Part shown: positions 15,848 through 31,936 of the stretch, piece by piece | Layout: every line of letters starts with the position of its first letter | How positions within the stretch are numbered: position 1 is the first letter of the stretch | The notes under the pieces: model-generated | What the model was told of the DNA's origin: nothing | The model's input: the letters and a program-made list of their open reading frames with translations, nothing else | Databases searched by the model: none | Source: Promicromonospora sp. AC04 | GTDB taxonomy: Bacteria > Actinomycetota > Actinomycetes > Actinomycetales > Cellulomonadaceae | Length of the DNA stretch: 64,000 nt | Direction: 5' to 3' | NCBI RefSeq assembly: GCF_003058225.1 | Contig: NZ_QBUG01000003.1 | Span: 186,001-250,000, forward strand | Position numbers and translations under genes: made by a program

Positions 15848-16141
15848 CTACCCCCCGAGCTGCGCCATGTAGCGGTCGACGAGCGCGCGGATCGCGATCC
15901 CGAGCCCGACGGCGATCCCGAGGCCCACGACGGACAGCACGACGACCTCGATGGACTCGAGGCCGGCCTCGTCGGGCTCACCCGCACGGCCGGCGGCCAG
16001 CCGTCGGCGCAGCTCGGCGGAGCGCTCCGCGAAGCGGGTGTGCAGAGCGTCGACGCGGCCGCGCACCGCAGAGGCGCGCAGCGACGCCCGTGCTGCGGCG
16101 CGCGACGCCGCCGATCGGCCCTGGCTCAGGTGCTGGTTCAT
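15848..16141 (-). CDS. Pilin-like protein with prepilin-type motif and long leader
   Basis: This is a 97-residue protein. The C-terminal third is a Flp-pilin-like core: GLESIEVVVLSVVGLGIAVG has a Gly followed by Glu at position +5, as prepilin peptidases require, then a hydrophobic helix. Unlike typical Flp pilins, the leader before the Gly is about 60 residues and rich in Arg/Ala. It sits where the pilin or a TadF-like gene is expected, between tadC and tadE. No prepilin peptidase gene is visible in the window. It is either an unusual major pilin or another pseudopilin. Confidence 0.65.
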   Translation of the reverse strand: MNQHLSQGRSAASRAAARASLRASAVRGRVDALHTRFAERSAELRRRLAAGRAGEPDEAGLESIEVVVLSVVGLGIAVGLGIAIRALVDRYMAQLGG

Positions 16142-17148: not shown

Positions 17149-18027
17149 TCAGGCCCCCCGCTCGTCGGGCAGGAACCGCGGGATCGGCTGCCCGAGGCTG
17201 ATGTTGCGCATCCACAGCAGGCAGATGACGTACGCGCAGAACAGCACGACCGCCACGACCTGGCCCACGGGCGAGTCGTACCCGCTGAGGTACCCGGACA
17301 TCGCCGTGGCCGCCAGCACCACGAGCGTCACGATCGTCACCCAGCGCACGGTCGCGCGGCCCGTCGCACGCTCGGTCTCGATCTCGCGCCGCGCCTTGGC
17401 CTGCGCCGAGAGGGACTCGGCGAGCTGCCGGAGCGCGGGCGCCACGGCGCCGGTGCGGTTGTCGGACTCCAGGATCATTGCCGACGCGATCATGTCCGCC
17501 GAGTAGTCGTCCATCTCGTCCGCCCAGCGGTACAGCGCGGGCTTGATCGGCTGGCGCGCCTCCAGGCGCGCCACGAGGCGCGCGAGCGACGGCCGCACGG
17601 ACGGCGCGGCACTGTGCAGCGTCGCGGCGATCCCCTGCTCCAACCCGACGGCGCCCCCGGACAGCACGCCGATCAGCGACCGGACCCAGGCGGTCAGGTC
17701 GGTCAGCTTCTCCACCTCGTTCGACTGCGTGGTCGTGCGGAACAGCGACGGCAGGCCGACGATCAGCACCGGCACGATCAGCACGAGCGACCACCAGCCG
17801 GTCAGGATCCCGATCACCAGTCCGGCAGCCGCGCCGATCCCCACCACCTTGCGCTGCGGGTACAGCGGCCCGCCCTTGGTCAGGCCGAGCAGGCGGAGCA
17901 GGCCGTGGAAGGGCGGGGTCGTGCGCGCCGGCTTCGGCGTCGGCTCGTACTTCTGCGCCCCGACGACGACGAACCACACCCCGAGGCCCAGGCCGAGCCC
18001 GGTCAGCACCGCGATCAGCGTGTTCAT
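17149..18027 (-). CDS. tadB: TadB-like type II secretion F-domain membrane protein
   Basis: This is a 292-residue protein with an N-terminal helix (IAVLTGLGLGLGVWFVVVGA), a helix pair near residues 65-105 (GIGAAAGLVIGILTGWW and LVLIVPVLIVGL), the T2SSF domain with LTAWVRSLIGVLSGGAVGLE and ADEMDDYSADMIASAMILE, and C-terminal helices (WVTIVTLVVLAATAMSGYL and VVAVVLFCAYVICLL). It is the partner of TadC in the pilus platform. It overlaps the tadA stop by 4 nt. Confidence 0.88.
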   Translation of the reverse strand: MNTLIAVLTGLGLGLGVWFVVVGAQKYEPTPKPARTTPPFHGLLRLLGLTKGGPLYPQRKVVGIGAAAGLVIGILTGWWSLVLIVPVLIVGLPSLFRTTTQSNEVEKLTDLTAWVRSLIGVLSGGAVGLEQGIAATLHSAAPSVRPSLARLVARLEARQPIKPALYRWADEMDDYSADMIASAMILESDNRTGAVAPALRQLAESLSAQAKARREIETERATGRATVRWVTIVTLVVLAATAMSGYLSGYDSPVGQVVAVVLFCAYVICLLWMRNISLGQPIPRFLPDERGA

Positions 18028-19673
18028 GCCGTCCCCCAGAGGCCGTCCCGGTAGTTCAGGAGGCTCGCGTCGAAGCCCTCGGCCTCCAGGTCGGCGAGGA
18101 ACGACGGCGTCGTCTTCGGCACCGCGCGGCCGTTCGGGCCCGGCTCGAACACGTCGGTGATCGCCACCGGGTTGCCGGCCTCGCCGCGCGACACCTCGAT
18201 CACCTCGGCGACGTAGCGGGTGCGGCGGCCGTCGCCCTCGGAGTCGACCCGGAGGAAGACGATGAGGTCGATCGACTGCGCGACCTGCCGGTACGCGTAC
18301 GTCTCGGAGAGCGTGGAGTCCTGCACGGCCATGCCGACCAGGCGTTCGACGACGTCCCGCGCGCCGTCGGCGTGCACCGTCGACAGCGAGCCGTTGCCCA
18401 TCTGCATCGCCTGGAACATGGACACGATCTCGGGCCCACGCACCTCACCGACGATCACGCGGGAGATGTTGTGCCGTAGCGACTCGTACACGTTGACGTT
18501 CGTGTTGATCTCGCCCACGCGGCGGCCGGACGTGTTCATCTCGCCCGAGCCCTCGCGCGTACGCAGCGCCACCACCCGCTTGTGCTTCTCGGGCTCGAGG
18601 TGCAGGTAGAGCTCGTAGTCGGTCTCGATAGTGGCGATGGACTCCCAGGGGTCCAGTCCGGCACACAAAGCGCGCAAAAGGGTCGTTTTACCGCTGCCCT
18701 GGCCCTGACCCGACACCACTATCGACTTGCGCGCCCGGACCGCCGCCGTCAGGAACTCGACCAGCACCGTGTCGATCGTGTCGTTCCGGCGCAGCAGCTC
18801 CAGGTCCACCGACTGCAGTCTCTGCAGCCGGATGGTCACGCGCGGCCACGGCACGACCCAGCCGACGGCGGCCAGCCGCACGCGACCGGGCAGGTCCAGG
18901 TTGAGGAACGGGTTGGCCCGCGTGAACGACCGCTCGTTCGCGGGGTCGCGCGCCGCGAGGAACTGCAGGAAGTCGATGAGCTCGGCGTCGGAGTCCGCGA
19001 TGGGCTCCGCGTACGTGCGGCGGCCGTCGCCCATCAGCATGAGCACGGGCGCGGTGCCCGTGATCTCGATGTTCTCCACGTCCGGGGTGTCGATGAGCGG
19101 CTGCAGCCGGCCCAGGCGGAACAGCGCGTCGAACAGCGCGCGCGTCACCTCGACCTGGTACTCGGTGGTCCAGTTGCGCTGGCCACCGGAGAGCAGTGCG
19201 TCGTTGTGGTCGCGCACGACCTGCTGGATCAGCTCCTGGCCGAGCGCCTCGCGCTGCTCCTCGTCCAGCTCGCGCGTCGCGAGCGCCGTCGTCAGCCGGG
19301 AGGACACCTCGCCACGCAGGCTGTTGACCTGACGCCAGAACTCGGAGTCGCGCAGCCGCGGGTTGCCGGGCTGGCCGTGGTACTCCCGACCGGCCCGGGC
19401 CAGCGCTCCGACCCAGGGTGAGGCGCCGCCTCCCGACGACGGCGCCCCGCCGGACGTGGTGCGCGCCGGCGCGGCGGGCTCGGCGGTGCGTGTCGTGCCG
19501 TTGCCCTGCTCCACCACCGGCGAGGCCAGGGAGTTCTGCGCCGAGGCGATGCGCCTTTCCGACGCTGCCTCAGCCTCGGCAGCAGGAGACCGGCGAGGTA
19601 GAGCGGCGGTCCGGTCGTCGGCGTCGTGGAAGATCGGCAGGGAAGAGAGGTCGGGGAACTCGGGCGTGCTCAT
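18024..19673 (-). CDS. tadA: TadA/CpaF-type pilus assembly ATPase
   Basis: The start is set at the ATG at 19673. It overlaps the stop of the tadZ-like gene (ATGA) and follows GGGAGGGGAG. That gives 549 residues; an in-frame start 24 nt upstream is less likely. The N-terminal 120 residues are low complexity. The GspE/PilT-type ATPase core follows: Walker A SGQGQGSGKTTLL near residue 324, the Asp box around SIATIETDYELYL, Walker B region NISRVIVGEVRGPEI, and the His box MGNGSLSTVHADG. It powers pilus assembly from the cytoplasmic face of the TadB/TadC platform. Confidence 0.93.
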   Translation of the reverse strand: MSTPEFPDLSSLPIFHDADDRTAALPRRSPAAEAEAASERRIASAQNSLASPVVEQGNGTTRTAEPAAPARTTSGGAPSSGGGASPWVGALARAGREYHGQPGNPRLRDSEFWRQVNSLRGEVSSRLTTALATRELDEEQREALGQELIQQVVRDHNDALLSGGQRNWTTEYQVEVTRALFDALFRLGRLQPLIDTPDVENIEITGTAPVLMLMGDGRRTYAEPIADSDAELIDFLQFLAARDPANERSFTRANPFLNLDLPGRVRLAAVGWVVPWPRVTIRLQRLQSVDLELLRRNDTIDTVLVEFLTAAVRARKSIVVSGQGQGSGKTTLLRALCAGLDPWESIATIETDYELYLHLEPEKHKRVVALRTREGSGEMNTSGRRVGEINTNVNVYESLRHNISRVIVGEVRGPEIVSMFQAMQMGNGSLSTVHADGARDVVERLVGMAVQDSTLSETYAYRQVAQSIDLIVFLRVDSEGDGRRTRYVAEVIEVSRGEAGNPVAITDVFEPGPNGRAVPKTTPSFLADLEAEGFDASLLNYRDGLWGTA

Positions 19674-20593
19674 GCGTCTCCCCTCCCGCCCTGCCACGGC
19701 CCGCCGTTCTGCGCGCTCCGCGCCGCGGAGCGGGCGTCCATGCCGGAGTGCTCGGGCGGACGCCTCTGGCCGGTCCCGCTGCCCACGTCACGAGGGCCGG
19801 TGGCGAACCGGGCTCGCCGCTTCTCCGTACGGTCCTGGAGCCGCGAGATCACGGGCCCGGCCGAGCGCACGAGCGGCGACGTCGAGTACCGCCGCCCGGC
19901 GGGCGCGCCCACGGACAGCACCTCCGCGTTCACCGGGTCCCAGGCCAACGAGCCCACGGTCCCGAGGCCGAGCGTCCGCGCGATCTCGTTCGCGTCGTAC
20001 GGCCGGCCGGGGCCGACGGTCAGGGCGGTGAGATTGGTGAGGTCGCGCGCCGCGGCGTCGACGACCGAGGTGCGGGACTTGACGAGCTCCCGCGTCACCG
20101 CGATGTCCGGCAGGCGCGAGCCGGTGGTGATCAGCACCTGGTCCGCGAGGCGGACTATCGGCTCCCGGTCCTCGCGCACGACGCCGCCGGTGCCGAGCCG
20201 GCCGAGGTCGACCAGGACGTCCATGCCACCACGCTCCAGCGCGACCAGCTGGTTGGCGAGCGGCCCCCAGAGGTTCGCGACGGCGGGCGCGGTGTGCGGG
20301 CTGACGATGCCGGGCAGCAGCTTCTTGTCCGGATCGTTTCGAACGAGCGGAATGGTCTGCTCCCAGAACGCTGCTTCGAGGTCACCGTGGGAGTGCGCGA
20401 TCGCCAGCGGCTGCAGGCCGCGGTCGTGCGGCAGCTGACCGCGGAAGTACCCGGCCAGGATCGACGATCCGGCGAGGTCCGCCTCCACGAGCAGCACGGG
20501 ACGGGGCCACTGGAGCGCCAGCACGAGGGCCGCCGTCGTGGTTCCCGGCGATCCCTTCGCATTGGCCAGGGCAACGAGGGCCACCCGGATCAC
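19670..20593 (-). CDS. TadZ/CpaE-like MinD-family ATPase
   Basis: This is a 307-residue protein. VALVALANAKGSPGTTTAAL is a deviant Walker A of the MinD/ParA superfamily in which the first Lys and the SPGTTT loop are present but the usual GK(T/S) Lys is replaced by Thr. RPVLLVEADLAGSSI and DVLVDLGRLG are the following strand motifs. This family localises Tad assembly machines to cell positions. The C-terminal 80 residues are basic and low complexity. It overlaps cpaB upstream and tadA downstream by 4 nt each. Confidence 0.85.
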   Translation of the reverse strand: MIRVALVALANAKGSPGTTTAALVLALQWPRPVLLVEADLAGSSILAGYFRGQLPHDRGLQPLAIAHSHGDLEAAFWEQTIPLVRNDPDKKLLPGIVSPHTAPAVANLWGPLANQLVALERGGMDVLVDLGRLGTGGVVREDREPIVRLADQVLITTGSRLPDIAVTRELVKSRTSVVDAAARDLTNLTALTVGPGRPYDANEIARTLGLGTVGSLAWDPVNAEVLSVGAPAGRRYSTSPLVRSAGPVISRLQDRTEKRRARFATGPRDVGSGTGQRRPPEHSGMDARSAARSAQNGGPWQGGRGDA

Positions 20594-21381
20594 CCCGCCC
20601 CGACGGCGTCGATCACGATGGCGACGCGACCGGTCGCGGCGCGAGCCGCGAGCCCTGCCGCGTTGGCCGAGGCGACCTCCACGTCGACGACCATCTGGTC
20701 GCCGAGCTCCGACTGCTTGCTGCCGATCACCGTGGCGGCGATCGCGAACGGCACCTCGACAGGCGGCTCCCCGCCACTCGCCGGGGTCTCCACCACGCGC
20801 ACGGCATCACCGGCGCGCAGCTCGTACGACGCGGGCATCTGGTTGGGCGCTAGGGCGATGCCCACGATGGACTGGCCCGCGGCAGGCTGGAGCTCGTCCA
20901 CGACGCTGGTGGGCGTCAGGAGCTGCCCCGCGTTGAGGTCGGCCGCGGCGGTCTTGCCCACCATCTGGTCGAGCTGGTCGGCGGGGACCGGCTTGAGCTG
21001 GGTCGGCCCGGTGGGCAGCTCGACGGTGGCGAGGTCAGTTGCCGCGATCACGGTGCCGCGCGTGATCTCGCCCTTGACCGCGAGAACCTGATAGGTCTGA
21101 CCGAGCGTGCTGGTCAGGTACACGCTCGCGAGCACGCTCAGGGCCACGAGCGCAAGGCCCAGGGCGATGAGCGCGGGCCGACGGCGGGCGCGCGTAGGTT
21201 TCAGCGGCCCGGGCGGTGCGGGTCGCTGGGGTTTCGACGCGGACCGGGCGTGCTGATCCTGGTTCGCGACCTTCGTGCCACTGCTCACCGTGCCGTCTCC
21301 TCCGGGTCCGTCGCCGGAGCCCGCCTCGGGTTCCCCCGGAGCGGGACCCATCGAGGTTCCCATCCGTGCGCCTGTCTCCAC
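20590..21381 (-). CDS. cpaB: CpaB/RcpC-like SAF-domain pilus protein
   Basis: The start probably is the GTG at 21381 (263 residues), with GGGAG a few bases upstream. ATG codons at 21363 and 21351 remain possible, and the longer frame from 21456 would put the promoter region inside the gene. The protein has a cytoplasmic low-complexity N-terminus, a membrane helix (RPALIALGLALVALSVLASV) and an SAF domain (QVLAVKGEITRGTVIAATDL, then GKTAAADLNAGQLLTPTSV). The C-terminus is beta-rich. It is the first gene of the Tad operon. Confidence 0.85.
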   Translation of the reverse strand: METGARMGTSMGPAPGEPEAGSGDGPGGDGTVSSGTKVANQDQHARSASKPQRPAPPGPLKPTRARRRPALIALGLALVALSVLASVYLTSTLGQTYQVLAVKGEITRGTVIAATDLATVELPTGPTQLKPVPADQLDQMVGKTAAADLNAGQLLTPTSVVDELQPAAGQSIVGIALAPNQMPASYELRAGDAVRVVETPASGGEPPVEVPFAIAATVIGSKQSELGDQMVVDVEVASANAAGLAARAATGRVAIVIDAVGAG

Positions 21382-21476
21382 CGTGCTCCCGCCCGTGCTG
21401 GTCGAGGACCTCCTGCGGATGTCATGCGTGTGACACCGCAGGTAATCCTTGTCCACACGGGCGGACCCGGCAGGTT

Positions 21477-21795: not shown

Positions 21796-22692
21796 TCAGC
21801 CCATCGGCCGTCGTCGTCCCTCATCGTCCCGTTCGCCCGGTTGTCCCCCAGACAGACCACCGGACTGAACGGCTTCCGCCAGCCGTCGCACTGCGCGACT
21901 CGCCCGCTGGCGCAAGGCTGCGTGCGAGATACCCAGCTCGTGGGCAACCCGCCGCTGATAGTTCCCGCGACCCGAGCCGAGCTCGGCGTACTCCGGGAGG
22001 TCGGGGTCCGGCGCGTACAGCCGCGCCAGAAGAGCTGACTCGTCCCGCGTCAGGACGCTCTTGTCGAGCCCCCACGCGATGACGTCGAGAACCTCGCCCG
22101 TGGCGCCGAGGGACATGCTCGCGAGCGAGTAGACCGCGTCCGGCCCGGGCTCGGGCGACGTCGGGCGCTCGAGGACGGTCAGCGTGCTCGTGTCGGTGGG
22201 GATCTCCGCGACCTGGGGGCCGCGGCTCGCCCGGCCGCCCCGCGCGTGCGGGGCCCGGTCGCCGACGACCCGCGTCAGGGTGTGCCCCTGCAGACGCATC
22301 GCCACCCGGCTGCTGCGGTCGAGGTCGTAGTGGGTGATCGCGTCCCACATCGCGGCGGCGGCCTCCTGCTCGAGGTCCTGCACGTCCGGGTAGTGCCGGC
22401 GTGACCGGCGCACGATGGTGCGCACCGCGGGAAGCATGCACTGCAGCACCGCACGCCCGGCGGCGAAGCTGCCCCCCGCGTGCTCGACGATGAGCGCGTA
22501 CAGGACCTCGTCCGCCTCGTCGGGCGCGAGCCGCACACCGTCACCGGTGCGCAGTCCCGCAAGCTGTGGGAACCGTGCGGCGAACCGCTCGATCTCGGTC
22601 GCGAACGACCGCGTGCGGACCAGGTCGGCCCAGTCGTGGTCAAGCTCTCGCATCAGCGTTCCTGATGCCTGTGCAGGTGTCCGTGCAGGCAT
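21796..22692 (-). CDS. Sigma-factor-like transcription protein
   Basis: The ATG at 22692 follows GGAGGGGGG and gives 298 residues; the frame is open to 22746. The middle part has a sigma region-2-like helix (SRRHYPDVQDLEQEAAAAMW) followed by DAITHYDLDRSSR, which resembles the region 2.3/2.4 melting and -10 contact area. Near the C-terminus, YQRRVAHELGISHAALRQRA is a region-4-like helix-turn-helix. The arrangement is that of small sigma factors, although both regions are divergent. It stands between the Tad operon and the divergent T4SS-like operon, so it is a candidate regulator of one or both. No anti-sigma gene is beside it. Confidence 0.75.
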   Translation of the reverse strand: MPARTPAQASGTLMRELDHDWADLVRTRSFATEIERFAARFPQLAGLRTGDGVRLAPDEADEVLYALIVEHAGGSFAAGRAVLQCMLPAVRTIVRRSRRHYPDVQDLEQEAAAAMWDAITHYDLDRSSRVAMRLQGHTLTRVVGDRAPHARGGRASRGPQVAEIPTDTSTLTVLERPTSPEPGPDAVYSLASMSLGATGEVLDVIAWGLDKSVLTRDESALLARLYAPDPDLPEYAELGSGRGNYQRRVAHELGISHAALRQRASRAVRRLAEAVQSGGLSGGQPGERDDEGRRRPMG

Positions 22693-22770
22693 GGCGATTC
22701 CCCCCTCCGTCAGCCCTGAGTCCACCGAGGGGGTGTTGCCCGCCACTGTTGCCCGCTCGTTCCGACCCTG

Positions 22771-22786
22771 TGTGACCTACGTCACA
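22771..22786. promoter_or_regulatory. CRP/GlxR-type binding site
   Basis: TGTGACCTACGTCACA is an exact TGTGA-N6-TCACA palindrome. It lies in the 190-bp region between the divergent sigma-like gene (start 22692) and the T4SS-like operon (start 22883), 97 bp before the latter. Actinobacterial Crp and GlxR regulators bind this consensus, so both transcription units may respond to cAMP. Confidence 0.65.
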
Positions 22787-22882
22787 GTTGGCCAAAACCC
22801 GTGGCAGACCGATGTCACACGAACGCTTCACCAGCCATTTGTGCTCAGCAGACGCAAGAGACGGATAAACGGGAGAGGCGAG

Positions 22883-23212
22883 ATGAGCAAGGACGAGCTC
22901 GACCAGGCGCCCGGCGCCGGACTCGGCAGCACCGACCTCGGCAGCGCGGACCTGCGCAGCGCGGACCCTGGGCCTTCGGCCTTCGACCACACGTGGTCCC
23001 TGCTGCGGGACACGGCCGAGGTACATGCGGCCCGCGGTGAGGTGGCGCCCGTGGTGCGCGACCTCATCGCCTCCCTCTCCGAGGACCCCCTCGGCGAGGA
23101 GGACACGACGGTCCGCCTGACGGAGGCGCTCGACAGCCCTCGCGTGCGCAGCGCACGCGAGGCGCGCGAGCGCATCCGGGCCGACCTGCAGAACGAGGTG
23201 CACACCCGATGA
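22883..23212 (+). CDS. Small acidic protein at the head of the T4SS-like operon
   Basis: This is a 109-residue protein starting at the ATG at 22883, preceded by GGGAGAGG. The frame is open further upstream, but those codons run through the promoter region. There is no signal or membrane helix. The N-terminus is low complexity with LGSTDLGSADLRSADPG-type short repeats, and the rest is helical and charged. The stop overlaps the next ATG (ATGA), so it is coupled to the TcpC-like gene. I do not recognise it. A cytoplasmic accessory or regulatory role in the secretion locus is inferred from position only. Confidence 0.7.
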   Translation: MSKDELDQAPGAGLGSTDLGSADLRSADPGPSAFDHTWSLLRDTAEVHAARGEVAPVVRDLIASLSEDPLGEEDTTVRLTEALDSPRVRSAREARERIRADLQNEVHTR

Positions 23213-24348
23213 GCTCGCTCCTCGTGCGCCGTCGGGGCAAGAAGGCCGCCAAGCCGGCCGAGCTGCCCGGCCCGGTCGACGGCGCCACCGGTACCGCCTC
23301 CCCGTGGGCCGGCGGACCCGATCAGCCCGCGTCGCCCCCGTCGTCGGGCGGCGGGGGCGACGGCGACCCTCCCCCGCAGGTGGTGGAGTGGTCCAACGGC
23401 CCCGCCCTGGCGACCAAGGCCTGGGGTGCCGTGCTCGCGCTGGCCCTGCTGGCCGGGCCCGCTGCCCTGGTCTGGACCGCGCTGCGACCCGAGCCCGCTC
23501 CCGTCGCCGCGGCCACCGGTGCGGCGAGCACGACGGAGACCGCCGCGGCGAGCGAGCGCGCGGTAGAGCTCGTCGAGACCTGGCTGCGCGCCGACAGCAA
23601 CGACCAGCAGCTGATCGCCTCCCTGACGAACGCCCCGGTCGGCTCTCTCCCCCAGGAGGGTCTGACCATTCGCGACTCGTCGGTGGCACAGGTCGAGCCG
23701 GCGGAGGACGGCGTGTGGTCGGTGACCGTCGGCGTGGACGTCGCGGAGCCGGCTCCGGGCTCGACGCCCGCGCCGTCGGGCCAGGCCAAGGGCGAAGAGG
23801 CGGAGATCGCGCTCGTGTGGGTGCGCCGCTACTTCCAGGTGCCGGTGCTCGTGGACCGCACGGACACGAAGTGGTCGGGTCCCGACCTGGCGGTCACCGC
23901 CCTCGCGCTGCCCGCACCCGTGCCGGGCCCCGCGGCCGACGCCGAGCCGCCGGACCTCGACTACCCCGAGACCATCTCTCCGACGTCGGCAGCGGGTCAG
24001 TCCGTTGCCGGGTTCCTCGCGGCCATGGTCGCGGGCGACGGCGAGATCACGCGCTACCTGCGCCCCGGCACCTCCGTCTCGGCAGTGACCCCGGCCCCGT
24101 ACTCGGCAGTGGCCGTGACGGGCATCAAGGGTTCGCACGAGGTCACGGAGGACCCGGCCGACGGCGACGGCACGCACGCCCTGACCACCGTCGAGCTCAC
24201 GCGGCTCGACGGCCAGAAGACCACCGCCCAGTACGTCCTCACGCTCGTTGCGCGGGACGGCCGCTGGGAGGTTGCCGGCCTCGAGCCGGCGGTCCGTATC
24301 GACACGACGCCATCCGGCACGATCGACCCCGGCACCGCCGGGGAGTAG
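23209..24348 (+). CDS. TcpC/VirB8-like conjugation-type membrane protein
   Basis: This is a 379-residue protein. A Pro/Gly-rich cytoplasmic N-terminus of about 68 residues precedes one membrane helix (AWGAVLALALLAGPAALVW). Two extracytoplasmic domains follow (about residues 115-245 and 255-375), consistent with the two NTF2-like domains of TcpC from Gram-positive conjugation systems (Orf13 of Tn916). Motifs are ERAVELVETWLRADSNDQQL and SAAGQSVAGFLAAMVAGDGE at the start of each domain. It would form the VirB8-like inner scaffold. It overlaps the upstream gene by 4 nt. Confidence 0.8.
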   Translation: MSSLLVRRRGKKAAKPAELPGPVDGATGTASPWAGGPDQPASPPSSGGGGDGDPPPQVVEWSNGPALATKAWGAVLALALLAGPAALVWTALRPEPAPVAAATGAASTTETAAASERAVELVETWLRADSNDQQLIASLTNAPVGSLPQEGLTIRDSSVAQVEPAEDGVWSVTVGVDVAEPAPGSTPAPSGQAKGEEAEIALVWVRRYFQVPVLVDRTDTKWSGPDLAVTALALPAPVPGPAADAEPPDLDYPETISPTSAAGQSVAGFLAAMVAGDGEITRYLRPGTSVSAVTPAPYSAVAVTGIKGSHEVTEDPADGDGTHALTTVELTRLDGQKTTAQYVLTLVARDGRWEVAGLEPAVRIDTTPSGTIDPGTAGE

Positions 24349-24362
24349 CGAAGGAGAGAACC

Positions 24363-24647
24363 ATGATCAGCGAGATCGTTATGGCCGACGGCTTCCTCGA
24401 CCTCATCACCGTGAAGTCCGAGGAGGTCAAGAGCGCAATCGAGTCCGTGACCTTCGTGGTCGTCATCCTCATGGTCGTCATCACCGCGGTGAAGACCAAG
24501 ATGTCGATCGCGGCGATCCTGATGTCCGCGATCGTCGGCGGCATCGTCCTGTGGCTCGTGAACGGTGGCATCAACGTCACCTCCGAGCTCGCCCGGGACG
24601 AGTTCGACTCCGCCCCGGCGATCGTCAGCTCACAGACAGTTCTCTGA
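24363..24647 (+). CDS. Small two-helix protein, VirB2-like pilin candidate
   Basis: This is a 94-residue protein with the ATG at 24363 behind AAGGAGAG. Two hydrophobic helices (VTFVVVILMVVITAV and IAAILMSAIVGGIVLWLVN) are joined by a short basic loop KTKMS, the hallmark topology of VirB2/TraA-type pilins. The N-terminal 25 residues are polar and could be a leader or an outside segment. It lies between TcpC-like and PrgI-like genes, where a pilin-type subunit is sensible. A stable hairpin follows at 24722. The function is inferred from topology and position only. Confidence 0.65.
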   Translation: MISEIVMADGFLDLITVKSEEVKSAIESVTFVVVILMVVITAVKTKMSIAAILMSAIVGGIVLWLVNGGINVTSELARDEFDSAPAIVSSQTVL

Positions 24648-24721
24648 CGGCCGCGAGACCCGCGGCGTCGGACACATCGGATGGGCAAGGCACTGAGGGC
24701 AAGGCACAGGGCTGGTCAGAT

Positions 24722-24739
24722 GGGCGCGTTCGCGCGCCC
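24722..24739 (+). terminator. Intra-operon hairpin with UUCG loop
   Basis: GGGCGCG and CGCGCCC flank a TTCG tetraloop. It lies between the 94-residue gene and the PrgI-like gene, just before the ribosome site of the latter, in the largest gap (116 nt) of the operon. There is no U tract. It may stabilise the upstream transcript end or reduce read-through, favouring expression of the small subunit. Confidence 0.4.
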
Positions 24740-24763
24740 TGCATGTGGTGAGGAGGGTGTCCG

Positions 24764-25504
24764 GTGACCGAGACCGCGAAGTTCTACACGAAGGCCCGCC
24801 GCATCCCCATGCTGGTGGGGAAGCTACCCAGCGGCGGGCGCATCTGGGGCGGCCCGTACACCATCACCCAGGTGGGGGCGGGCGCCGTGGTGGCGTTCGC
24901 CCTGTGGAAGACCGCTCCGTTGTGGGCGCAGCTGGGCGGCTTCATGAACATAGTGGTCGCCGTCGGGGTGGTCGTGGGTGTCGTCTGGGCCACGGGCAAG
25001 CTCCCGAGCTCCGGTCGTAACCCGGTCGCGTTCGTGATGGACGCGATGAACCTGACGTCCAGCCCGGGACGCCTGGTCGGCGGGCAGGTCGCCCTGCCCA
25101 AGCCGCGCCTGATGACGCACCGGGTGATGGTCGTGCTGCCCCGGACCGCAACCGGCCCCGCGCAACACACCGAACCGGCGGCCAGGCCGGCCGCACCGGC
25201 CAGACCGGTCGGAGCTGCCGAGCCGCCGCGCCCCGTGGTGGTCCAGCCGGTACCGACCGAGCTCCTGCCGGAGCTGACCGGCCGGGGGCCCGCCGACGCG
25301 ACCTTCGAGGGCCGACGGCTCCCGAGACCCGAACCGCAACCCAGACCCGTCACCGACAGACGCTCGCCCGCGGACTGGGCGGCAGCCGCCGCGAGAGCGG
25401 CCGCGGACCGCAAGAACACCGATCTCACCGGCGTCGGCCAGCTGCTCGCCGGGAAGCCGAAGAACACCGACCGCACAGCACCCACCACCCCGCGAGAGGA
25501 CTGA
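24764..25504 (+). CDS. PrgI-like T4SS membrane protein
   Basis: This is a 246-residue protein. The GTG at 24764 is preceded by AGGAGGGTGTCC. After a short N-terminus (TKARRIPMLVGKLPSGGRIW) come two adjacent helices (YTITQVGAGAVVAFALWKT and FMNIVVAVGVVVGVVWATG), as in PrgI/VirB3-like proteins of Gram-positive secretion systems. The C-terminal half is a Pro/Arg/Ala-rich cytoplasmic tail. Directly downstream is the VirB4 ATPase, the usual partner of PrgI. Confidence 0.75.
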   Translation: MTETAKFYTKARRIPMLVGKLPSGGRIWGGPYTITQVGAGAVVAFALWKTAPLWAQLGGFMNIVVAVGVVVGVVWATGKLPSSGRNPVAFVMDAMNLTSSPGRLVGGQVALPKPRLMTHRVMVVLPRTATGPAQHTEPAARPAAPARPVGAAEPPRPVVVQPVPTELLPELTGRGPADATFEGRRLPRPEPQPRPVTDRRSPADWAAAAARAAADRKNTDLTGVGQLLAGKPKNTDRTAPTTPRED

Positions 25505-25510
25505 GCCCCC

Positions 25511-28042
25511 ATGCTGAGCCACATCTCGGCCCTGACCGACGGCCTCATGTGGACCCGCACCGGGACCGTGTGGGCGGTCTGGCGCGTGTCACCTGTGCCG
25601 TACGCATTCCAGCCGGACGACAAGAAGCACGCGGCGCGGCGGCACCACACCGCGCTGTACCGCGCGCTGCGCGGCGAGTCCCTGCACCTCGGCCTGACGG
25701 CGGCCACCGACCCGGCGTCGGTGGTGCTCTCGATGATCGAGGGCGTCGACCTGGCCGAGCGCGAGGCGTGGGCCGCCGAGTGCGAGGCCACCCTCGACTT
25801 CCTGGAGCAGATCCCGATCGGGCGCCGCGTCCACTGGATCGCCGCACCCCTGGCGAACCCGGGCGCCAAGGCGTTCATGGAGCCGCTGCAGGCCAGCTGG
25901 ACCACCCTCCAGGACACGCTGATGATGCCGCGGTCCGTGCCGGGCCGGCACGCGATCGGCGAGCGGGCCGCCCAGGCGGAGGCGCTGCGTAAGGAGATGC
26001 CCTCGGCGTTCGACCCCCAGCCGGCGTCGGTGGCGGAGATGGCCTGGATGTTCGGCCACGCGATGCAGCGCGGCCTCGGGCTGGACACGGCGGTCCCGGT
26101 CGACGGGTCGCTGGACGCGGAGATGCACCTGTCCGGCCCCTCGGTCCTGCCGTCCGCGCTGGTGGACCCGGCCGGGCAGACGGACTCCGAGAAGAAGCTG
26201 GGCCCGCTGCAGATCCTGAAGCGGCCGTACGTGAAGGTGCTGGACCCGACCAACCCCGAGCTCGCGTCGTACCAGACGACGCTCGTGGTGAGCGACACGC
26301 CGTCGGGCGGGATCGTGTACCCGGGGTGCGAGTGGATCGGGCGTGTCGACGAGTCGGGTGTGCCGTGCGACTGGGCCATCCGCATGACGGTGCGCTCGCG
26401 CGACGAGGTGACCAACCGCAACCGGCGCGCGGTGCGCACCCTGAACGACCAGTTCGACCAGCGCTCCGAGGAGGAGCGGGCCGGGTCGTCCCTGGACACG
26501 ACGGCGCGCGCGCTGGGCGAGTACCAGGCGGTCATGGACGCGGACGAGCTCGAGGTCGAGGTGGACGCGACCACGATGTTCACGGTCTCGGGCCACACCC
26601 CGGAGCAGGCGCTCGACGACGCCCGCGACCTGACCAAGTACTTCGCCGCCATGCAGTTCTCGCTGCGCACGGACCCGACGATCCAGCCGACGCTCTTCGA
26701 CGCCACGCTGCCGGGTATGCCGACGCCACGCGCCGTGCGGGAGTACTCGCAGATCACGACGGCGCGGGCGTTTTCGGCGGCGGTGCCGTTCGCGACCACC
26801 GAGCTGGGTGACACCTCCGGTGCGCTGTTCGCCCTGGAGATCTCGAACGGGGCCGCGCGGCCCAACCCGGTGTTCGTGAACCTGGCCGGCGCCACCGACA
26901 AGCTGGACGTCGCGCTCGCGATGGGCTTCGTGGGCGAGCTGGGCTCGGGCAAGTCGGTGAGCATGAAGACCGTGGCCATGGACAACGTCGACATGGGCGC
27001 CACGCTCATGGCGGTGGACCACACCGAGATGGGCGAGTGGGGCATCGCCGTCTCCGAGATCCCCGGCTCGCAGGTTGTGGAGATCTCGGAGGACGCGACG
27101 GTGTCGATGGACCCGCTGCGGATCCTGCCGCCGGCGCAGGCGCCCCGCGTCGCCCGGGCCTTCATCACGGTGCTGCTGTCGGTGCAGACCAAGTCCGAGC
27201 AGAACGTGCTGCTGTCCAAGGTGCTGCAGACGGAGTACATGTGGCGGCACAAGATCACCTCGCTGGGGTCGCTCGCGCGACACCTGGAGGAGGACTGCGA
27301 GTACCCGGGCGCCAAGATGCTCGCCGACGAGATGCGCATCTTCTCCGAGCTCGACTTCGGGCGCGCCCTCTTCGACGACTCGCTGCCACCGCTCGACCTG
27401 AGCTCACCCGCGATCGTGCTGCACACGCACAAGATGCAGCTGCCCTCGCGAGCCGACATGGAGCACGGGCACCTGTTCGCCGAGCTCAAGGCGGAGAAGG
27501 TGTTCGGCCGCGCCACGTTCGCGCTGATCGCGGCCCTCGCCAGATACCGCTGCTTCGCGGACCGCTCCCGGCTCGACATCTTCGCCGCCGACGAGGCGTC
27601 CAAGACGATGTCGTCGCCCGAGGCGGCCGAGGAGATCGGCACGTTCATCCGGGACGGCCGTAAGCACAAGGCCGCCCTCCTGCTCGGCAGCCACGACGCC
27701 GAGGAGGACTTCGGCAACGAGGTGGTCCGTGGGCTGATCCCGTTCCGCGTGCTGCTGCGCCACCGCGACGCGAACCTCGCCCGCCGTGGTCTGCGCTGGC
27801 TGCACGGCCTGCCGACCGACGCATCGGTGGACGAGGGCCTGGTCAAGCTCGTCACCGAGGGCACCGCCCCGGTGACGGACGCCGCCGTCGGCGTCGTCGA
27901 GGAGCGCCGCGGGGAGTGCCTGATCCGGGACTTCCAGGCCCGTTACGGCCGGGCGAAGGTCATGGCGCCGCTGGTGGAGAAGCGCGCCGAGACCGTGAAG
28001 ACCACGCCGACCAGCTCCAGCGGTGCGGTGATCGGGGCATGA
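25511..28042 (+). CDS. VirB4-like secretion ATPase
   Basis: This is an 843-residue protein with ATG at 25511, 7 nt after the PrgI-like stop. The N-terminal half matches the VirB4/CagE N-domain style (GLMWTRTGTVWAVWRVSPVP). The C-terminal half has Walker A GFVGELGSGKSVSMKT near residue 474, Walker B RLDIFAADEASK near 687 and a conserved RDGRKHKAALLLGSHDAEED block. It is the conserved energy source of type IV secretion systems. Length is normal for the family. It overlaps the VirB6-like gene by 4 nt. Confidence 0.9.
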   Translation: MLSHISALTDGLMWTRTGTVWAVWRVSPVPYAFQPDDKKHAARRHHTALYRALRGESLHLGLTAATDPASVVLSMIEGVDLAEREAWAAECEATLDFLEQIPIGRRVHWIAAPLANPGAKAFMEPLQASWTTLQDTLMMPRSVPGRHAIGERAAQAEALRKEMPSAFDPQPASVAEMAWMFGHAMQRGLGLDTAVPVDGSLDAEMHLSGPSVLPSALVDPAGQTDSEKKLGPLQILKRPYVKVLDPTNPELASYQTTLVVSDTPSGGIVYPGCEWIGRVDESGVPCDWAIRMTVRSRDEVTNRNRRAVRTLNDQFDQRSEEERAGSSLDTTARALGEYQAVMDADELEVEVDATTMFTVSGHTPEQALDDARDLTKYFAAMQFSLRTDPTIQPTLFDATLPGMPTPRAVREYSQITTARAFSAAVPFATTELGDTSGALFALEISNGAARPNPVFVNLAGATDKLDVALAMGFVGELGSGKSVSMKTVAMDNVDMGATLMAVDHTEMGEWGIAVSEIPGSQVVEISEDATVSMDPLRILPPAQAPRVARAFITVLLSVQTKSEQNVLLSKVLQTEYMWRHKITSLGSLARHLEEDCEYPGAKMLADEMRIFSELDFGRALFDDSLPPLDLSSPAIVLHTHKMQLPSRADMEHGHLFAELKAEKVFGRATFALIAALARYRCFADRSRLDIFAADEASKTMSSPEAAEEIGTFIRDGRKHKAALLLGSHDAEEDFGNEVVRGLIPFRVLLRHRDANLARRGLRWLHGLPTDASVDEGLVKLVTEGTAPVTDAAVGVVEERRGECLIRDFQARYGRAKVMAPLVEKRAETVKTTPTSSSGAVIGA

Positions 28043-30006
28043 TCCGGCTGGCGCCTCTTCCGTTCGCCGATCCACAGGGTGGGCTGAACCTGGAAGACAC
28101 GCAGGGCGTGGACTACAACCGGTTCACGCTCCAGTGGGACACGGGCTCGCCGTGGAACCCGCTGAACGTCGACTCCGAGATCTTCTCGACCCTCGCGGGC
28201 ATGTTCTGGGTCTGGTACCGCGACATGGTCGCGGTGCAGATCTGGGTGCTCGACTGGGTGCTCGGCATGGACTGGCTCGGCTACATCCTGGCGCCGCTGG
28301 CCGGGCTGAGCATCATCGTGCAGGGCATGATCGCGCAGATCGGCCTGCTCAACCTGATGCTCATCATCCTGGCGTTCGTCGTGGGCTTCTGGCTGCTCAA
28401 GGGCCGGTACGCGGGCGGCTTCATGGAGCTCCTCATCGGCTGCCTCATTGCCGCCCTGGCCACCACCTTCCTCGCCAACCCCATGGCGACGATCGGCGGT
28501 GAGCAGGGCGTGATCATGCAGTCGCGGAACGCCGGCATGGACATCGCCACGGGGTTCGCGACCGAGGGTGCCTCATTCGAGCGGGACTCCACGGTGATCC
28601 GCGAGGGCCTCAAGGGCCAGCTCGTGGACACGCTGCTGCGCGCGCCCCACCAGATCATCAACTACGGCTCGGTCATCGACGGCACGGGCTGCGAGGACAC
28701 CTACACCGAGAACGTGGGTCGCGAGGACGCCGTCGACGCGATCGGGGGTTGCGACGAGGCCTACAAGGAGGCGGCGTCCACGGTCGACGCCGGCACCGTC
28801 GTCTCGACGCTCAGCCTGCTCACCACCGGGTTCGTGTTCCTCCTGCTGTCCGTGGTGATCGTGGGCGGCACCATCTTCGCGGTGCTGCTGCTGGGCTGGT
28901 CGGCGATCAAGCTGCTGTGGCAGCTCCCGGTCGGCGTCATCTCGAGCGGCACCCGAGCCCAGCTGTTCCGTACGTTCGCGAGCGTGGCCTTCGGCGCCGT
29001 CCTGGTGGCGATGGCCACGATGTTCCTGGTCGCGTGGATGAAGATGCTGCTCGGCTTCTACGACGCCACCAGCGGCCTGCCGTTCCTCGTGCGGCTGTAC
29101 CTGTTCAACACGCTGGTCATCGCGGGCGCCGTCTTCTACGTGCTCATGGGCGCGAGCGTGCGGCAGGGCCTGCGGGCGCTGGCCGACAAGCTCGCGGCCG
29201 CCGGCGTCCCCTCCCAGGTGGGCGAGCCGGCCGCGATGCCGTGGGACGGCACCGCGAAGTGGCGCGACCGGTACAACAAGGCCAGGGAGTGGGCAGGCGT
29301 CGGTCTGGGCCCAGCGCCCGTGCAGCGGCACGACACGGCGGTCGAGCTCGACGGCGCGGACGGCCCGCCCACGGACCCGTCCGCCATGGACGGCACACCG
29401 GGCGGCGGCTCGGTCGGCGCGGCCGCGGGCCGCCCGATGAACGACGACAACCGCACGGTCCCCATCCCGGTCGACGGCTCCGGCCAAGCCGCCGGGCCGG
29501 ACGGCGGACCCACCAGTGCGAGCAGTGGCGGCAACGCCTGGACCACCGCCGCCCGCACGGTCCAGGACGGATCGCCCGACGGCGGACGCGCGGGCGGCGA
29601 TCCGCTGCCGGACGGGACGAACGTCGGCGAGAAGGCGTCGAACGAGCCCGGCCCGCACCTGCCGCCCACGGCCGGCGAGCGGCTCGGCGACCGGCTGAAC
29701 AGCGCGCGCCGCGCAGGGACGTCGATAGCCCTGCAGGCCGGCGCGATGGTCGCGAGCGGCGGCACGTCCGCCGCCGCGGCCGGCGCCTCCAAGGCGCTCA
29801 CCGTGGTGGCCAGGGCCAAGCAGGCGAAGCAGGTGCTCGGCGCCGTGCGTGGCCTCGGTCGCCGGGGCGAGCGCTCGCAGAGCGCGGCCCGGCTGGCCCA
29901 GTCCCTCAACGCCGCCCGGCAGAGCGGGGCGCAGGGCGCAGGGCCGCAGCCCGCGGCCATCGTGCACAACCCGGGACGGCGTCAGATGCGAGAGCTGGGC
30001 CGCTGA
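28039..30006 (+). CDS. VirB6/TrbL-like polytopic membrane protein
   Basis: This is a 655-residue protein; the ATG at 28039 overlaps the VirB4 stop (ATGA). About seven membrane helices lie in residues 55-400, among them GLSIIVQGMIAQIGLLNLML, FVFLLLSVVIVGGTIFAVLL and SVAFGAVLVAMATMFLVAW. A Cys-containing loop (GTGCEDTYTEN...GGCDEAYKE) probably faces outside. The C-terminal 250 residues are a Gly/Pro/Asp-rich cytoplasmic tail. This is the layout of VirB6-like channel proteins such as Orf15 of Tn916. It lies between the ATPase and a small exported protein gene. Confidence 0.8.
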   Translation: MIRLAPLPFADPQGGLNLEDTQGVDYNRFTLQWDTGSPWNPLNVDSEIFSTLAGMFWVWYRDMVAVQIWVLDWVLGMDWLGYILAPLAGLSIIVQGMIAQIGLLNLMLIILAFVVGFWLLKGRYAGGFMELLIGCLIAALATTFLANPMATIGGEQGVIMQSRNAGMDIATGFATEGASFERDSTVIREGLKGQLVDTLLRAPHQIINYGSVIDGTGCEDTYTENVGREDAVDAIGGCDEAYKEAASTVDAGTVVSTLSLLTTGFVFLLLSVVIVGGTIFAVLLLGWSAIKLLWQLPVGVISSGTRAQLFRTFASVAFGAVLVAMATMFLVAWMKMLLGFYDATSGLPFLVRLYLFNTLVIAGAVFYVLMGASVRQGLRALADKLAAAGVPSQVGEPAAMPWDGTAKWRDRYNKAREWAGVGLGPAPVQRHDTAVELDGADGPPTDPSAMDGTPGGGSVGAAAGRPMNDDNRTVPIPVDGSGQAAGPDGGPTSASSGGNAWTTAARTVQDGSPDGGRAGGDPLPDGTNVGEKASNEPGPHLPPTAGERLGDRLNSARRAGTSIALQAGAMVASGGTSAAAAGASKALTVVARAKQAKQVLGAVRGLGRRGERSQSAARLAQSLNAARQSGAQGAGPQPAAIVHNPGRRQMRELGR

Positions 30007-30632
30007 TGAAGCGCATATTCGTCGTGGCGATAACGGTGATCGCCCTCGCGATCGGGACCTGGATCGGCTGGCCGCGCGAGGGCGGTCCCGTCGACCCGAC
30101 CGCACAGGAGAGCTCGGGCGCCGTCGCCCCCGGTGGTCAGGACGACTTCGACGATCCCGAGGGGACCTCCGACGAGACGGCCGACGACGCCGCCGCGACC
30201 GAGGCGGTCGACGGGCGGCCCGATGCCGGCGACCCCGCGGTCGAGGTGACGGCCGAGCCGGAGTTCGACGAGACGGCCCCCACCGAGCCCGTCGAGGCGA
30301 CGTGGGACGACACCGTGCGCAAGGCCGCGCGCGACGCGGCCCTCGCGACCATCACGGCGTTCGCCGCCACCGACAAGGCCGAGGACGCCTGGTGGGCCGG
30401 CCTGCAGCCGCTCCTCACGCCGCAGGCGCGGCCCGTCTACCAGGACGTCGACCCACGGCTCGTGCCGGTCACCGAGGTGACCGGTGACCCGGAGGTCACC
30501 GACGAGACGTCCACGCTGCTCGCCGAGGTGGCGGTGCCCACCGACATCGGCCCCTACACGGTGCTCCTGACCCGGGCCGACGGCGCGGCACCCTGGCTGG
30601 CGGAGCAGATCAGGCCGCCGGAGGGGTCGTGA
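30006..30632 (+). CDS. Membrane-anchored accessory protein of the T4SS-like operon
   Basis: This is a 208-residue protein whose ATG shares one base with the VirB6-like stop (TGATG). An N-terminal helix (IFVVAITVIALAIGTWIGW) is followed by an acidic Asp/Glu/Ala linker (about residues 30-95) and a C-terminal domain of about 110 residues (DDTVRKAARDAALATITAFA...LAEQIRPPEGS) that resembles small NTF2-like domains. The function is unknown. It may be a second VirB8/TcpC-like component or a partner of the hydrolase encoded next. Confidence 0.7.
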   Translation: MKRIFVVAITVIALAIGTWIGWPREGGPVDPTAQESSGAVAPGGQDDFDDPEGTSDETADDAAATEAVDGRPDAGDPAVEVTAEPEFDETAPTEPVEATWDDTVRKAARDAALATITAFAATDKAEDAWWAGLQPLLTPQARPVYQDVDPRLVPVTEVTGDPEVTDETSTLLAEVAVPTDIGPYTVLLTRADGAAPWLAEQIRPPEGS

Positions 30633-31936
30633 GCGGGCGGGACGCCGTCGGGCTCGCGACGCGGGCCGTCTCGCAGGCAGTCCGGTCCCGGGGCACGCGG
30701 CCCGGCAACGGCAGGAAGAAGGACGACGCGACCAGGCGCGCGGTACTCGTGCTCGCCGTGCTGACCGCCGCCGTCCTGGCGGTGCCTGCGGCGGTGATCG
30801 CGATGGTCGTGCTCGTGGGCGGCGCCGTGAGCGAGAACCAGTCGCAGAACGGCTGCAGCATGTCGGCGTCGGTGGTGCCGGCGGGTGGCCAGGCCACGTC
30901 CGCCGGCGGCTTCACGGGCGAGCAGCTGCAGAACGCCTCGGTGATCCTGCAGGTGGGTCAGGAGCGCGGGGTTCCGGCCCGGGCGCAGGCTATCGCGGTG
31001 ATGACGGCCCTCGGTGAGTCGGGTATGCGCAACCTCTCCTACGGCGACGACCGCTTCGGGGTGCGCAACCCCGACGGCACGCTGACCTCCTCGATCGGCA
31101 TGTTCCAGGAGCAGAAGTGGTACGGCACGGTCGAGGAGCGCCTCGACCCGGTGCAGTCGTCCGGCCGGTTCTACGACCGGCTGCTCGCGATCACCGGCTG
31201 GGAGACGCTGGAGCCGACGATCGCCGCGCACAAGGCGCAGCGGAACGCCGACCCGTACCACTACGAGCAGTACTGGGACCAGGCGCTCCAGGTCATCCAG
31301 CTGGTCAGCGGGGCCGACGCCGAGGACCTCGCGGCGCTGTCCGAGTCGATCCAGGGCGCCGCGGCCACGGCGCCGTGCATGACCGGTTCCATCGGGCGCG
31401 CCGCTGTCAGCGCAGGCGGGTGGGCCAACCCAGCCGTCGGGACGAAGGCGTCCGGGTTCGGACCGCGCAGCACCGGTATCGCGGGGGCGTCGACCTACCA
31501 CCTGGGCCAGGACATCGCAGCGGCCTGCGGCACCCAGGTGTTCGCGGCCGCGGCGGGGCGCGTGGTGATCTCCGGAGCGACCGGCTGGGGCACCGGCAAC
31601 ACGATCCGGATCGAGCACGGTCTCGGTCTCGACTCGACGTACGGGCACCTGCTCACCGGCACCAACCTGGTGCGGGTCGGCCAGACGGTGCAGGCCGGGC
31701 AGCAGATCGCCGCCATGGGCGGCGACTCGCGCATCGACCCGGCGGGGGCGGGCACGTCGTCGGGCTGCCACCTGCACTACGAGGTGCGGATGAACGGGCA
31801 GGCCGTGGATCCGGAGCCGTTCATGGCGCAGCAGGGCGTGACGCTCGGCGTCGCGACGCCGGTCACCGAGCCGGTCTCCCCCGCGGACGAGCCGTCGGAC
31901 GGCGGCGCGGCGCCTGCGGACGCGACGGGAAACTGA
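30629..31936 (+). CDS. Peptidoglycan hydrolase: transglycosylase-like plus M23 peptidase domains
   Basis: This is a 435-residue protein. The GTG at 30629 overlaps the previous stop (GTGA). An N-terminal helix (residues 38-67) anchors or exports it. Residues of about 95-215 resemble a lytic-transglycosylase-like domain (ARAQAIAVMTALGESGMRNL, then SIGMFQEQKW). Residues of about 285-395 are an M23 domain: STYHLGQDIAAACGTQVFAA supplies the His and Asp zinc ligands and SGCHLHYEVR the HxH. Such two-domain hydrolases (for example Orf14 of Tn916) open the wall for the secretion apparatus. It ends the operon. Confidence 0.88.
   Translation: MSGRDAVGLATRAVSQAVRSRGTRPGNGRKKDDATRRAVLVLAVLTAAVLAVPAAVIAMVVLVGGAVSENQSQNGCSMSASVVPAGGQATSAGGFTGEQLQNASVILQVGQERGVPARAQAIAVMTALGESGMRNLSYGDDRFGVRNPDGTLTSSIGMFQEQKWYGTVEERLDPVQSSGRFYDRLLAITGWETLEPTIAAHKAQRNADPYHYEQYWDQALQVIQLVSGADAEDLAALSESIQGAAATAPCMTGSIGRAAVSAGGWANPAVGTKASGFGPRSTGIAGASTYHLGQDIAAACGTQVFAAAAGRVVISGATGWGTGNTIRIEHGLGLDSTYGHLLTGTNLVRVGQTVQAGQQIAAMGGDSRIDPAGAGTSSGCHLHYEVRMNGQAVDPEPFMAQQGVTLGVATPVTEPVSPADEPSDGGAAPADATGN

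Follow-up and report, generated by a model that had tools for sequence, protein, structure and literature searches.

A chromosomally fixed type IV secretion locus with a linked Tad pilus and no coupling ATPase in Promicromonospora, probably domesticated from a plasmid-type transfer module

Orf13-17 of Tn916 and the tcp locus of pCW3 encode TcpC, a VirB4/TcpF-type ATPase and a wall hydrolase. Here we analyse a type IV secretion system (T4SS) operon with comparable parts in Promicromonospora sp. AC04, at positions 22883-31936 of a stretch of 64,000 nucleotides (the window, i.e., positions 186001-250000 of contig C3 in a genome of 6.85 Mb). Unlike Tn916 and pCW3, whose gene order and hydrolase type differ as well, this operon has no coupling ATPase and is attached to a Tad pilus locus and a sigma-like gene.

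Coupling-free, non-conjugative T4SSs are represented in the accessible part of PMC12857230 by ComB, Ptl, Brucella VirB and Bartonella Trw, all of them Gram-negative. These resemble the window's operon in keeping VirB4 and a channel without a coupling protein and, probably, in having a non-conjugative task, whereas the envelopes are diderm, the gene sets differ and no linked Tad locus is mentioned in that part of the source. For T4SSs that lack a relaxase, frequent domestication has been argued (PMC3158045, in the portion consulted). A conjugation-type locus adjoining tad is found on a Cutibacterium acnes plasmid, where Flp pili/tad genes lie beside FtsK, VirB4 and TcpC and the functional link is left open (PMC5696575, in part); the window's locus is instead chromosomal and without FtsK. 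Excerpts of other sources place tad genes on Rhodococcus chromosomes (PMC12915292) and T4SS genes beside a T7SS on mycobacterial plasmids (PMC8190616), and a chromosomal Tad + T4SS block of the window's type is described neither there nor in the accessible parts of PMC6305408 and PMC3218068. Going by the open-access literature, we know of no published report of this system.

Based on sequence comparisons, we propose that the window probably holds a chromosomally fixed, coupling-ATPase-free T4SS with its Tad locus, derived from a plasmid-type transfer module and now working as a domesticated, non-conjugative surface machine. In this scenario, the common ancestor of Promicromonospora, Myceligenerans and Antribacter (hereafter the clade) would have captured, near oriC, a module of plasmid type or of integrative and conjugative element (ICE) type that joined a TcpC/VirB4-type T4SS to the Tad operon and to a sigma-like regulator. 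Its FtsK/TcpA-type coupling ATPase would have been lost, so that plasmid DNA would no longer be fed into the channel, and selection would have kept the VirB4-powered trans-wall channel, the wall hydrolase and the Tad pilus as a host surface machine. Domestication, raised as a possibility in an earlier note on this DNA, is well supported by synteny in three genera, purifying selection, the lack of a cognate ATPase in 15 genomes, and a separate inactivation elsewhere.

The T4SS operon and its conservation in the clade

All eight open reading frames (ORFs) of the operon were confirmed on the forward strand, mostly with overlaps of 1-4 bases or gaps of at most 20 bases, and with one gap of 116 bases. 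Three products correspond to core parts of Gram-positive TcpC/VirB4-type systems. The VirB4 ATPase (25511-28042) matches AAA_10 (E 1.2e-36) as well as the TraC and TcpF profiles (each about 1e-14), with Walker A (GELGSGKS) and Walker B (IFAADE) intact; its profile gave no match against PDB at E <= 0.001. The TcpC/VirB8-like protein (23209-24348) matches PF12642 just below the Pfam cut-off (E 1.4e-5), and its family profile retrieves structure 3ub1 at E 3.1e-5 as the sole match with E <= 1. The peptidoglycan hydrolase (30629-31936; Peptidase_M23 4e-25) carries HxxxD and HxH motifs, and the second wall-hydrolase domain that the earlier note had read into it received no support from the profile search.

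The remaining parts are assigned less directly. The VirB6/TcpH-like membrane protein (28039-30006) has a weak NCBIfam match (E 0.0019) and a position conserved in its kin, and the PrgI/TcpE-like protein (24764-25504), conserved across kin without a profile match, is named by position. A small membrane protein (24363-24647) that aligns across kin is likewise TcpD-like by position; the nearest conjugation profile is TcpD, at a marginal E of 0.035, and the "VirB2-like" label once given to it is unsupported. The part list drawn up from the letters alone holds for VirB4, the TcpC/VirB8-like protein and the hydrolase, with VirB6 matched weakly and PrgI placed by position only. The product of gene G (30006-30632), a gene that the earlier note did not name, is, in its structure model, an NTF2 fold resembling VirB8 proteins and would be a second member of that type: the model aligns with 3ub1 (Z 11.3, 101 residues, rmsd 2.9) and with TraM, 4ec6 (Z 11.3, 98 residues, rmsd 2.5), and the top six rows of the ranking are T4SS proteins, followed by an unrelated NTF2-like protein at Z 10.5, while Foldseek returned no match at E <= 0.001. 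The first ORF, orfA (22883-23212, 109 aa), has no assigned function and a position conserved within the clade.

The distribution of VirB4 was searched in 59 genomes including the window's own. Matches occur in all 12 remaining genomes of the genus, in 4 of 24 from the rest of the family and in 0 of 22 from the rest of the order; two of the four family matches, from other genera, are 84-85% identical, and two (G027 and G034) are only weakly related. The closest named kin, at 96-99% identity, are Promicromonospora species, and 10 of the 12 congeneric VirB4s are full length. In G001, VirB4 is split by an in-frame insertion with signs of an intein. Clade VirB4s form one clade (support 100/100) on a long stem, with grouping by genus inside. 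The Tad-sigma-T4SS block is syntenic wherever the assembly covers it. It runs off the contig in G007, is broken up by assembly gaps in G009 and has undergone loss or rearrangement in G005; the other covered congeners have intact frames. TadA is present in 14 of 15 clade loci, the single miss being a 9.8-kb contig.

The block is also constrained. Four congeneric pairs with full-length VirB4 give dN/dS values of 0.040-0.058 for it, and in the three pairs that could be compared with CCA and PRPP it has 0.11-0.17, the same range as these two genes (0.11-0.17), so that VirB4 is constrained like housekeeping genes. T4SS genes do not exceed a dN/dS of 0.31 within the genus, and the block maximum, 0.53, is that of cpaB. 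Family genomes without this T4SS retain the downstream CCA gene (11/11), next to an MFS gene like the window's in 4 of 11, and no Tad or T4SS genes were detected in these 11 CCA stretches of 20 kb. As the earlier note had stated, the locus lies near the origin beside Tad: the operon is 25-34 kb from the dnaA start at 57153 (dnaA named here by reading, its Jiangella homologue by profile). The block is fixed in Promicromonospora, Myceligenerans and Antribacter rather than confined to mobile elements, and its constant synteny adjoining CCA, near dnaA, is unlike an integrative element or a plasmid replicon.

In-frame, intein-like insertions interrupt Walker A of VirB4 at one shared position, each starting after GELGAGK, in three loci: L037:12664-16500 (G001), L064:9965-13837 (Myceligenerans pegani) and L091:9851-13837 (Actinopolymorpha pittospori). 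In the two loci scanned for it, a LAGLIDADG domain was matched in L037 and weakly in L064.

Coupling ATPases in the clade and its relatives

A tblastn search matched 457 of 72,556 plasmid records, all at <60% identity. Five plasmids chosen among the matches listed (pXCEL01, pCPRO01, pFiD188, pAL1 and pKRAD01) carry TcpC, PrgI-like, VirB4 (38-42% identical) and VirB6-like genes in the window's order, together with a divergent sigma-like gene and, somewhere on each, TadA; pKRAD01 gave no profile match for the small membrane protein, for G or for M23. They thus resemble the window in core order, sigma-like gene and TadA, and differ in being plasmid-borne, in having an FtsK-type coupling ATPase downstream in four of five cases (none was found in the 32 kb examined of pCPRO01), and in that the window's Tad arrangement recurs only on pKRAD01. 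The TrwC relaxase is absent from all five, which are typed non-mobilizable; pAL1 has a TraG domain in addition to FtsK. A pattern-based scan of genome contigs, which is not a census, yielded 48 loci (15 clade and 33 non-clade, the nearest non-clade VirB4 at 45-47%), and FtsK is present in 18 of the 23 non-clade loci with >= 8.5 kb downstream.

In contrast, no coupling ATPase or relaxase is linked to the window's operon, and FtsK is found beside the T4SS in 0 of 15 clade loci, 12 of which have >= 8.5 kb downstream. A profile built from five coupling ATPases (A2) gave a best score of 45 bits among the 15 clade genomes; these matches of at most 45 bits are presumably housekeeping FtsK and other ATPases. 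The five controls comprised three genomes outside the profile (214, 527 and 492 bits), the Jiangella one being an inactivated homologue, and two plasmids that belong to the profile (>1000 bits each). TraG/VirD4 domains were identified in 7 of the 15 clade genomes, in one case as a weak fragment. Judged by these FtsK scores and this TraG/VirD4 count, the clade has no coupling protein in common, whether of FtsK or of TraG/VirD4 type. The absence of a coupling ATPase noted earlier is therefore upheld, with its type corrected: VirD4, considered as the missing part, was replaced by FtsK/TcpA in view of the plasmid kin, of which, however, pAL1 also has TraG.

In the window's own genome, TraG/VirD4 domains occur on C15 and C1 only, five TrwC matches on C2, C4, C5 and C15, and a MobL relaxase on C1; none of these is on C3, where the search for TrwC was likewise negative, other relaxase families having had no genome-wide search. 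Among clade genomes, TrwC is found in 14 of 15 (a short weak match in G004) and not in G007. Since the five plasmid relatives also lack TrwC and are typed non-mobilizable, the absence of a recognised relaxase is, on these sequences, uninformative. No integrase was noticed on reading the ORFs, and no att-like pair was present among the 20 largest of 53 direct-repeat families (all imperfect) in 9500-38500. The earlier note's statement that no relaxase, VirD4-type ATPase, integrase or att-like repeat lies nearby stands within that scope, and the check that it proposed for an unlinked VirD4 or relaxase found such genes on C1, C2, C4, C5 and C15 with no pair matching this system among the relaxase families searched.

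On C1, 1143-1183 kb (L006:8588-10876, L006:16438-19998 and L007:609-6149), a conjugative-element-like region encodes a MobL relaxase, a VirD4-type coupling protein and a 1847-aa protein matching RNA polymerase Rpb2 domain 6 (3.5e-7) and Rpb1 domain 2 (1e-4). On C15, at about 52-119 kb (L166, L193, L004 and L005), an ICE-like region combines a Tad locus of its own with genes for a TrwC relaxase, a TraG/VirD4 protein and an M23 protein. It also has an integrase-like gene next to suf-like genes (both named by reading) and is possibly another mobile element joining Tad with conjugation genes; a suspected VirB4 fragment in it had no Pfam match.

A block of the same kind, carrying an FtsK homologue, occurs in five Jiangella species and Haloactinopolyspora. 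In these six loci (L065, L067, L068, L069, L077 and L094) the conserved FtsK/TcpA-like protein has both Walker motifs destroyed, with GKR for GKT/S and HH for DE in 6/6, whereas GK[TS] and DE are intact in 11/11 other aligned coupling ATPases, and GKT is kept in 13/13 genome-contig FtsK matches better than 1e-50 outside the six (six of the 13 being close Rhodococcus relatives). One of the 13 is from Jiangella rhizosphaerae, which has a second module with an intact ATPase (L078) besides the inactivated copy (L069). Against NCBIfam, neither the inactivated FtsK of L067 nor the intein-bearing VirB4 of L037 gave a match at E <= 1e-10. With dN/dS of 0.12-0.37 in the four pairs compared, the dead ATPase evolves under purifying selection, and judging from these sequences it is likely a pseudo-ATPase; VirB4 keeps Walker A and B in 9/9 Jiangella-type loci checked. 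Flanking sequence from three genomes places the block between mviN-trxB and parB-dnaA (flank genes named by profile in G059, where VirB4 is about 26 kb from dnaA).

The Jiangellaceae block is like the window's in Tad, sigma-like gene, T4SS order, proximity to dnaA and VirB4 (about 45% identical), and unlike it in retaining a dead coupling ATPase and in giving no match to the M23 and G profiles. The VirB4 tree places the Jiangella group with VirB4s from outside the clade and separate from the window's own (moderate support of 84/84, root uncertain), which suggests, without proving, two separate domestications. The DNA motor was apparently lost on two occasions, once through deletion and once through inactivation, VirB4 staying intact in both.

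The Tad locus, the sigma-like gene and the promoter region

The Tad operon is divergent to the T4SS operon, running on the reverse strand from 21456 down to 10121, with TadA, TadB/C, TadE/G and CpaB parts of a Tad pilus locus. It starts with a CpaB/RcpC-like protein (20590-21456; SAF 6e-9), followed by a CpaE/TadZ-like protein (19670-20593), which has no Pfam match and is named from its position, ParA-like N-terminus and conserved gene order, and by the TadA/CpaF pilus ATPase (18024-19697; T2SSE 2.5e-24). Two membrane proteins of TadB/TadC type come next (17149-18027 and 16227-17147), with T2SSF matches of 2e-7 for the former and 0.0035, below the cut-off, for the latter, then a small Flp-pilin-like protein (15848-16141), again without a Pfam match and recognised by position and a hydrophobic C-terminal stretch, and three TadE/TadG-like proteins (15464-15844, 15036-15467 and 14557-15039; Tad or TadE, 1e-9 to 2e-6). 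The end of the operon is a 1478-aa protein with LysM (2e-11) and BTAD (5e-5) domains (10121-14557), and a LysM protein likewise closes the Tad operon of pXCEL01. No prepilin peptidase TadV was noticed within the operon, with no genome-wide search made for it.

The sigma-70-like regulator (21796-22692, reverse strand; start codon inferred in a frame open to 22746) is likewise divergent to the T4SS operon. It matches Sigma70_r2 at 2.8e-5, and its predicted fold finds sigma factors (best E 6.5e-4) with low TM scores. A sigma-like gene is also present in 24 of 25 non-clade loci having >= 8 kb upstream, and TadA in 12 of these 25 (nine Jiangella-type loci and three from other families). The earlier note had treated Tad as a neighbour; the sigma-like gene is part of a unit with the T4SS rather than a chance neighbour, and the Tad locus probably is too. 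Separately, Tad loci with an adjacent sigma-like gene and no T4SS within 20 kb were seen in three Jiangellaceae genomes and one from the window's order (L158, L159, L160 and L178).

Between the sigma-like gene and orfA lies a perfect TGTGA-N6-TCACA palindrome (22771-22786), which we take to be a CRP/GlxR-type site. It is perfect in 13/13 aligned clade rows and 5/5 further rows (17 distinct loci, omitting G005 and G009, where the region is absent), whereas none of 14 other loci has an exact copy, the pKRAD01 sequence differing at one position. Elsewhere in the genome, four more exact sites indicate no clear shared pathway; one of them precedes a cydA-like gene. In the region 22700-22880, a TGTTGCCCG block that recurs and another block resembling GTCACACGA are also conserved among the aligned clade sequences. 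Elsewhere in the window, ARAGORN predicts a single tRNA, tRNA-Ala (anticodon cgc), at 4721-4811.

Alternative explanations and possible tasks

Several observations weigh against the proposed domesticated surface machine. The CRP-type motif is no rarer in the window than chance, and the genome has 5 exact sites vs. 3 for a control pattern; frequency alone was therefore rejected as proof, and the argument from this site draws on clade conservation instead. G005 retains only the C-terminal part of VirB4 and has no close TadA, so that the system would be dispensable there unless the genome is misassembled. The four genera with MFS beside CCA also lack SseB and PRPP there, hence the site is not cleanly empty, and 5 of 23 non-clade loci also lack FtsK within 8.5-10 kb downstream. 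T4SS-linked TadA proteins are not one clade: the tree (53 rows) has 6 label changes, at least 5 of them forced, and supports no single origin of the linkage, which led us to reject Tad and T4SS as one inherited unit. Repeatedly linked or separated in this way, Tad and T4SS do not have to work jointly, and from this tree the link is a recurrent association only. Finally, TadA is present in 31 of 32 whole genomes searched, and may also be common on plasmids without this T4SS. Joint action of Tad and T4SS, the end of conjugation and the cargo of the channel are all inferred.

A functionless, decaying remnant of an integrated plasmid would fit the truncated G005 locus, yet we regard it as very improbable, given intact frames in the other covered congeners, the within-genus dN/dS values (for cpaB too), conserved promoter-region blocks and the retention of the block by three genera. 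It is also improbable, if less remotely so, that the block still exports DNA by borrowing a coupling protein in trans, for example the VirD4 of an ICE in the same cell or some other FtsK-like ATPase, thereby mobilising plasmids or actinomycete integrative and conjugative elements (AICEs). Such partners exist, since TraG/VirD4 is found in 7 of 15 clade genomes and TrwC in 14 of 15 (in a single genome as a short and weak hit); the window's own genome has two conjugative-element-like regions, each with a relaxase and a VirD4-type protein, and plasmid pAL1 pairs TraG with FtsK. However, the TraG/VirD4 domain is missing from the other 8 clade genomes, G007 lacks both TraG and TrwC, FtsK-profile matches in the clade stay at or below 45 bits, and the Jiangellaceae disabled the cognate motor yet conserved the rest.

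Two further explanations, both by analogy, are branches of the domesticated surface machine rather than competitors to it. By the one, the Tad pilus would capture DNA, the T4SS open the wall and ComEC import the DNA across the membrane, much as the coupling-free ComB T4SS imports DNA in Helicobacter (PMC12857230, accessible part). The absent coupling protein, ComEC in 14 of 15 clade genomes and the CRP-type site in the promoter region agree with this, as does Micrococcus luteus, whose transformation requires Tad genes according to the consulted part of PMC8467076. There, however, mutations that cut transformation at least 1000-fold include one in an FtsK-family gene beside tad-1, so that M. 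luteus uses an FtsK-type ATPase, the very part missing here, and ComEC, present in 10 of 14 control genomes as well, is too widespread to discriminate; we see ComB-like uptake as possible but doubtful. By the other, a Tad pilus and a transport base would act on a touching neighbour, either as a weapon or for contact-dependent delivery. In Myxococcus, a Tad (Kil) pilus together with a needleless T3SS base serves to kill prey (PMC12075869, in part), which is alike in joining a Tad pilus to the base of another export system, a T3SS in that case, and serves as a works-like analogy only. The linkage of TadA to this T4SS on pKRAD01 and in 12 of the 25 non-clade loci with enough upstream sequence is in line with such a device, whereas no candidate effector was identified among the neighbouring ORFs, the only ones read for it, and we rate this branch as rather unlikely.

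For the domesticated surface machine, DNA uptake or contact-dependent delivery would be the most likely tasks. DNA uptake is the task we would tentatively put forward; contact-dependent delivery to, or killing of, neighbours is conceivable, adhesion only is hard to favour, and any other task is unlikely. On a broader scale, we advance with some hesitation the view that actinobacterial Tad pili and TcpC/VirB4-type T4SSs may form one composite contact machine, domesticated at least twice by disabling only the DNA motor (through deletion in Promicromonosporaceae, and in Jiangellaceae by conversion to a dead but conserved ATPase) and set beside oriC under host control, for DNA uptake or contact-dependent delivery. 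Cooperation between Tad and conjugation machines, left open in the accessible part of PMC5696575, would become testable by deletion in soil bacteria. A coupling-free T4SS in monoderm chromosomes, with motor loss in two lineages, would extend the Gram-negative cases of PMC12857230 (as far as that source was consulted) and, if the reading is true, would mean that conjugation machines are domesticated in Gram-positive bacteria too and indicate which step does it.

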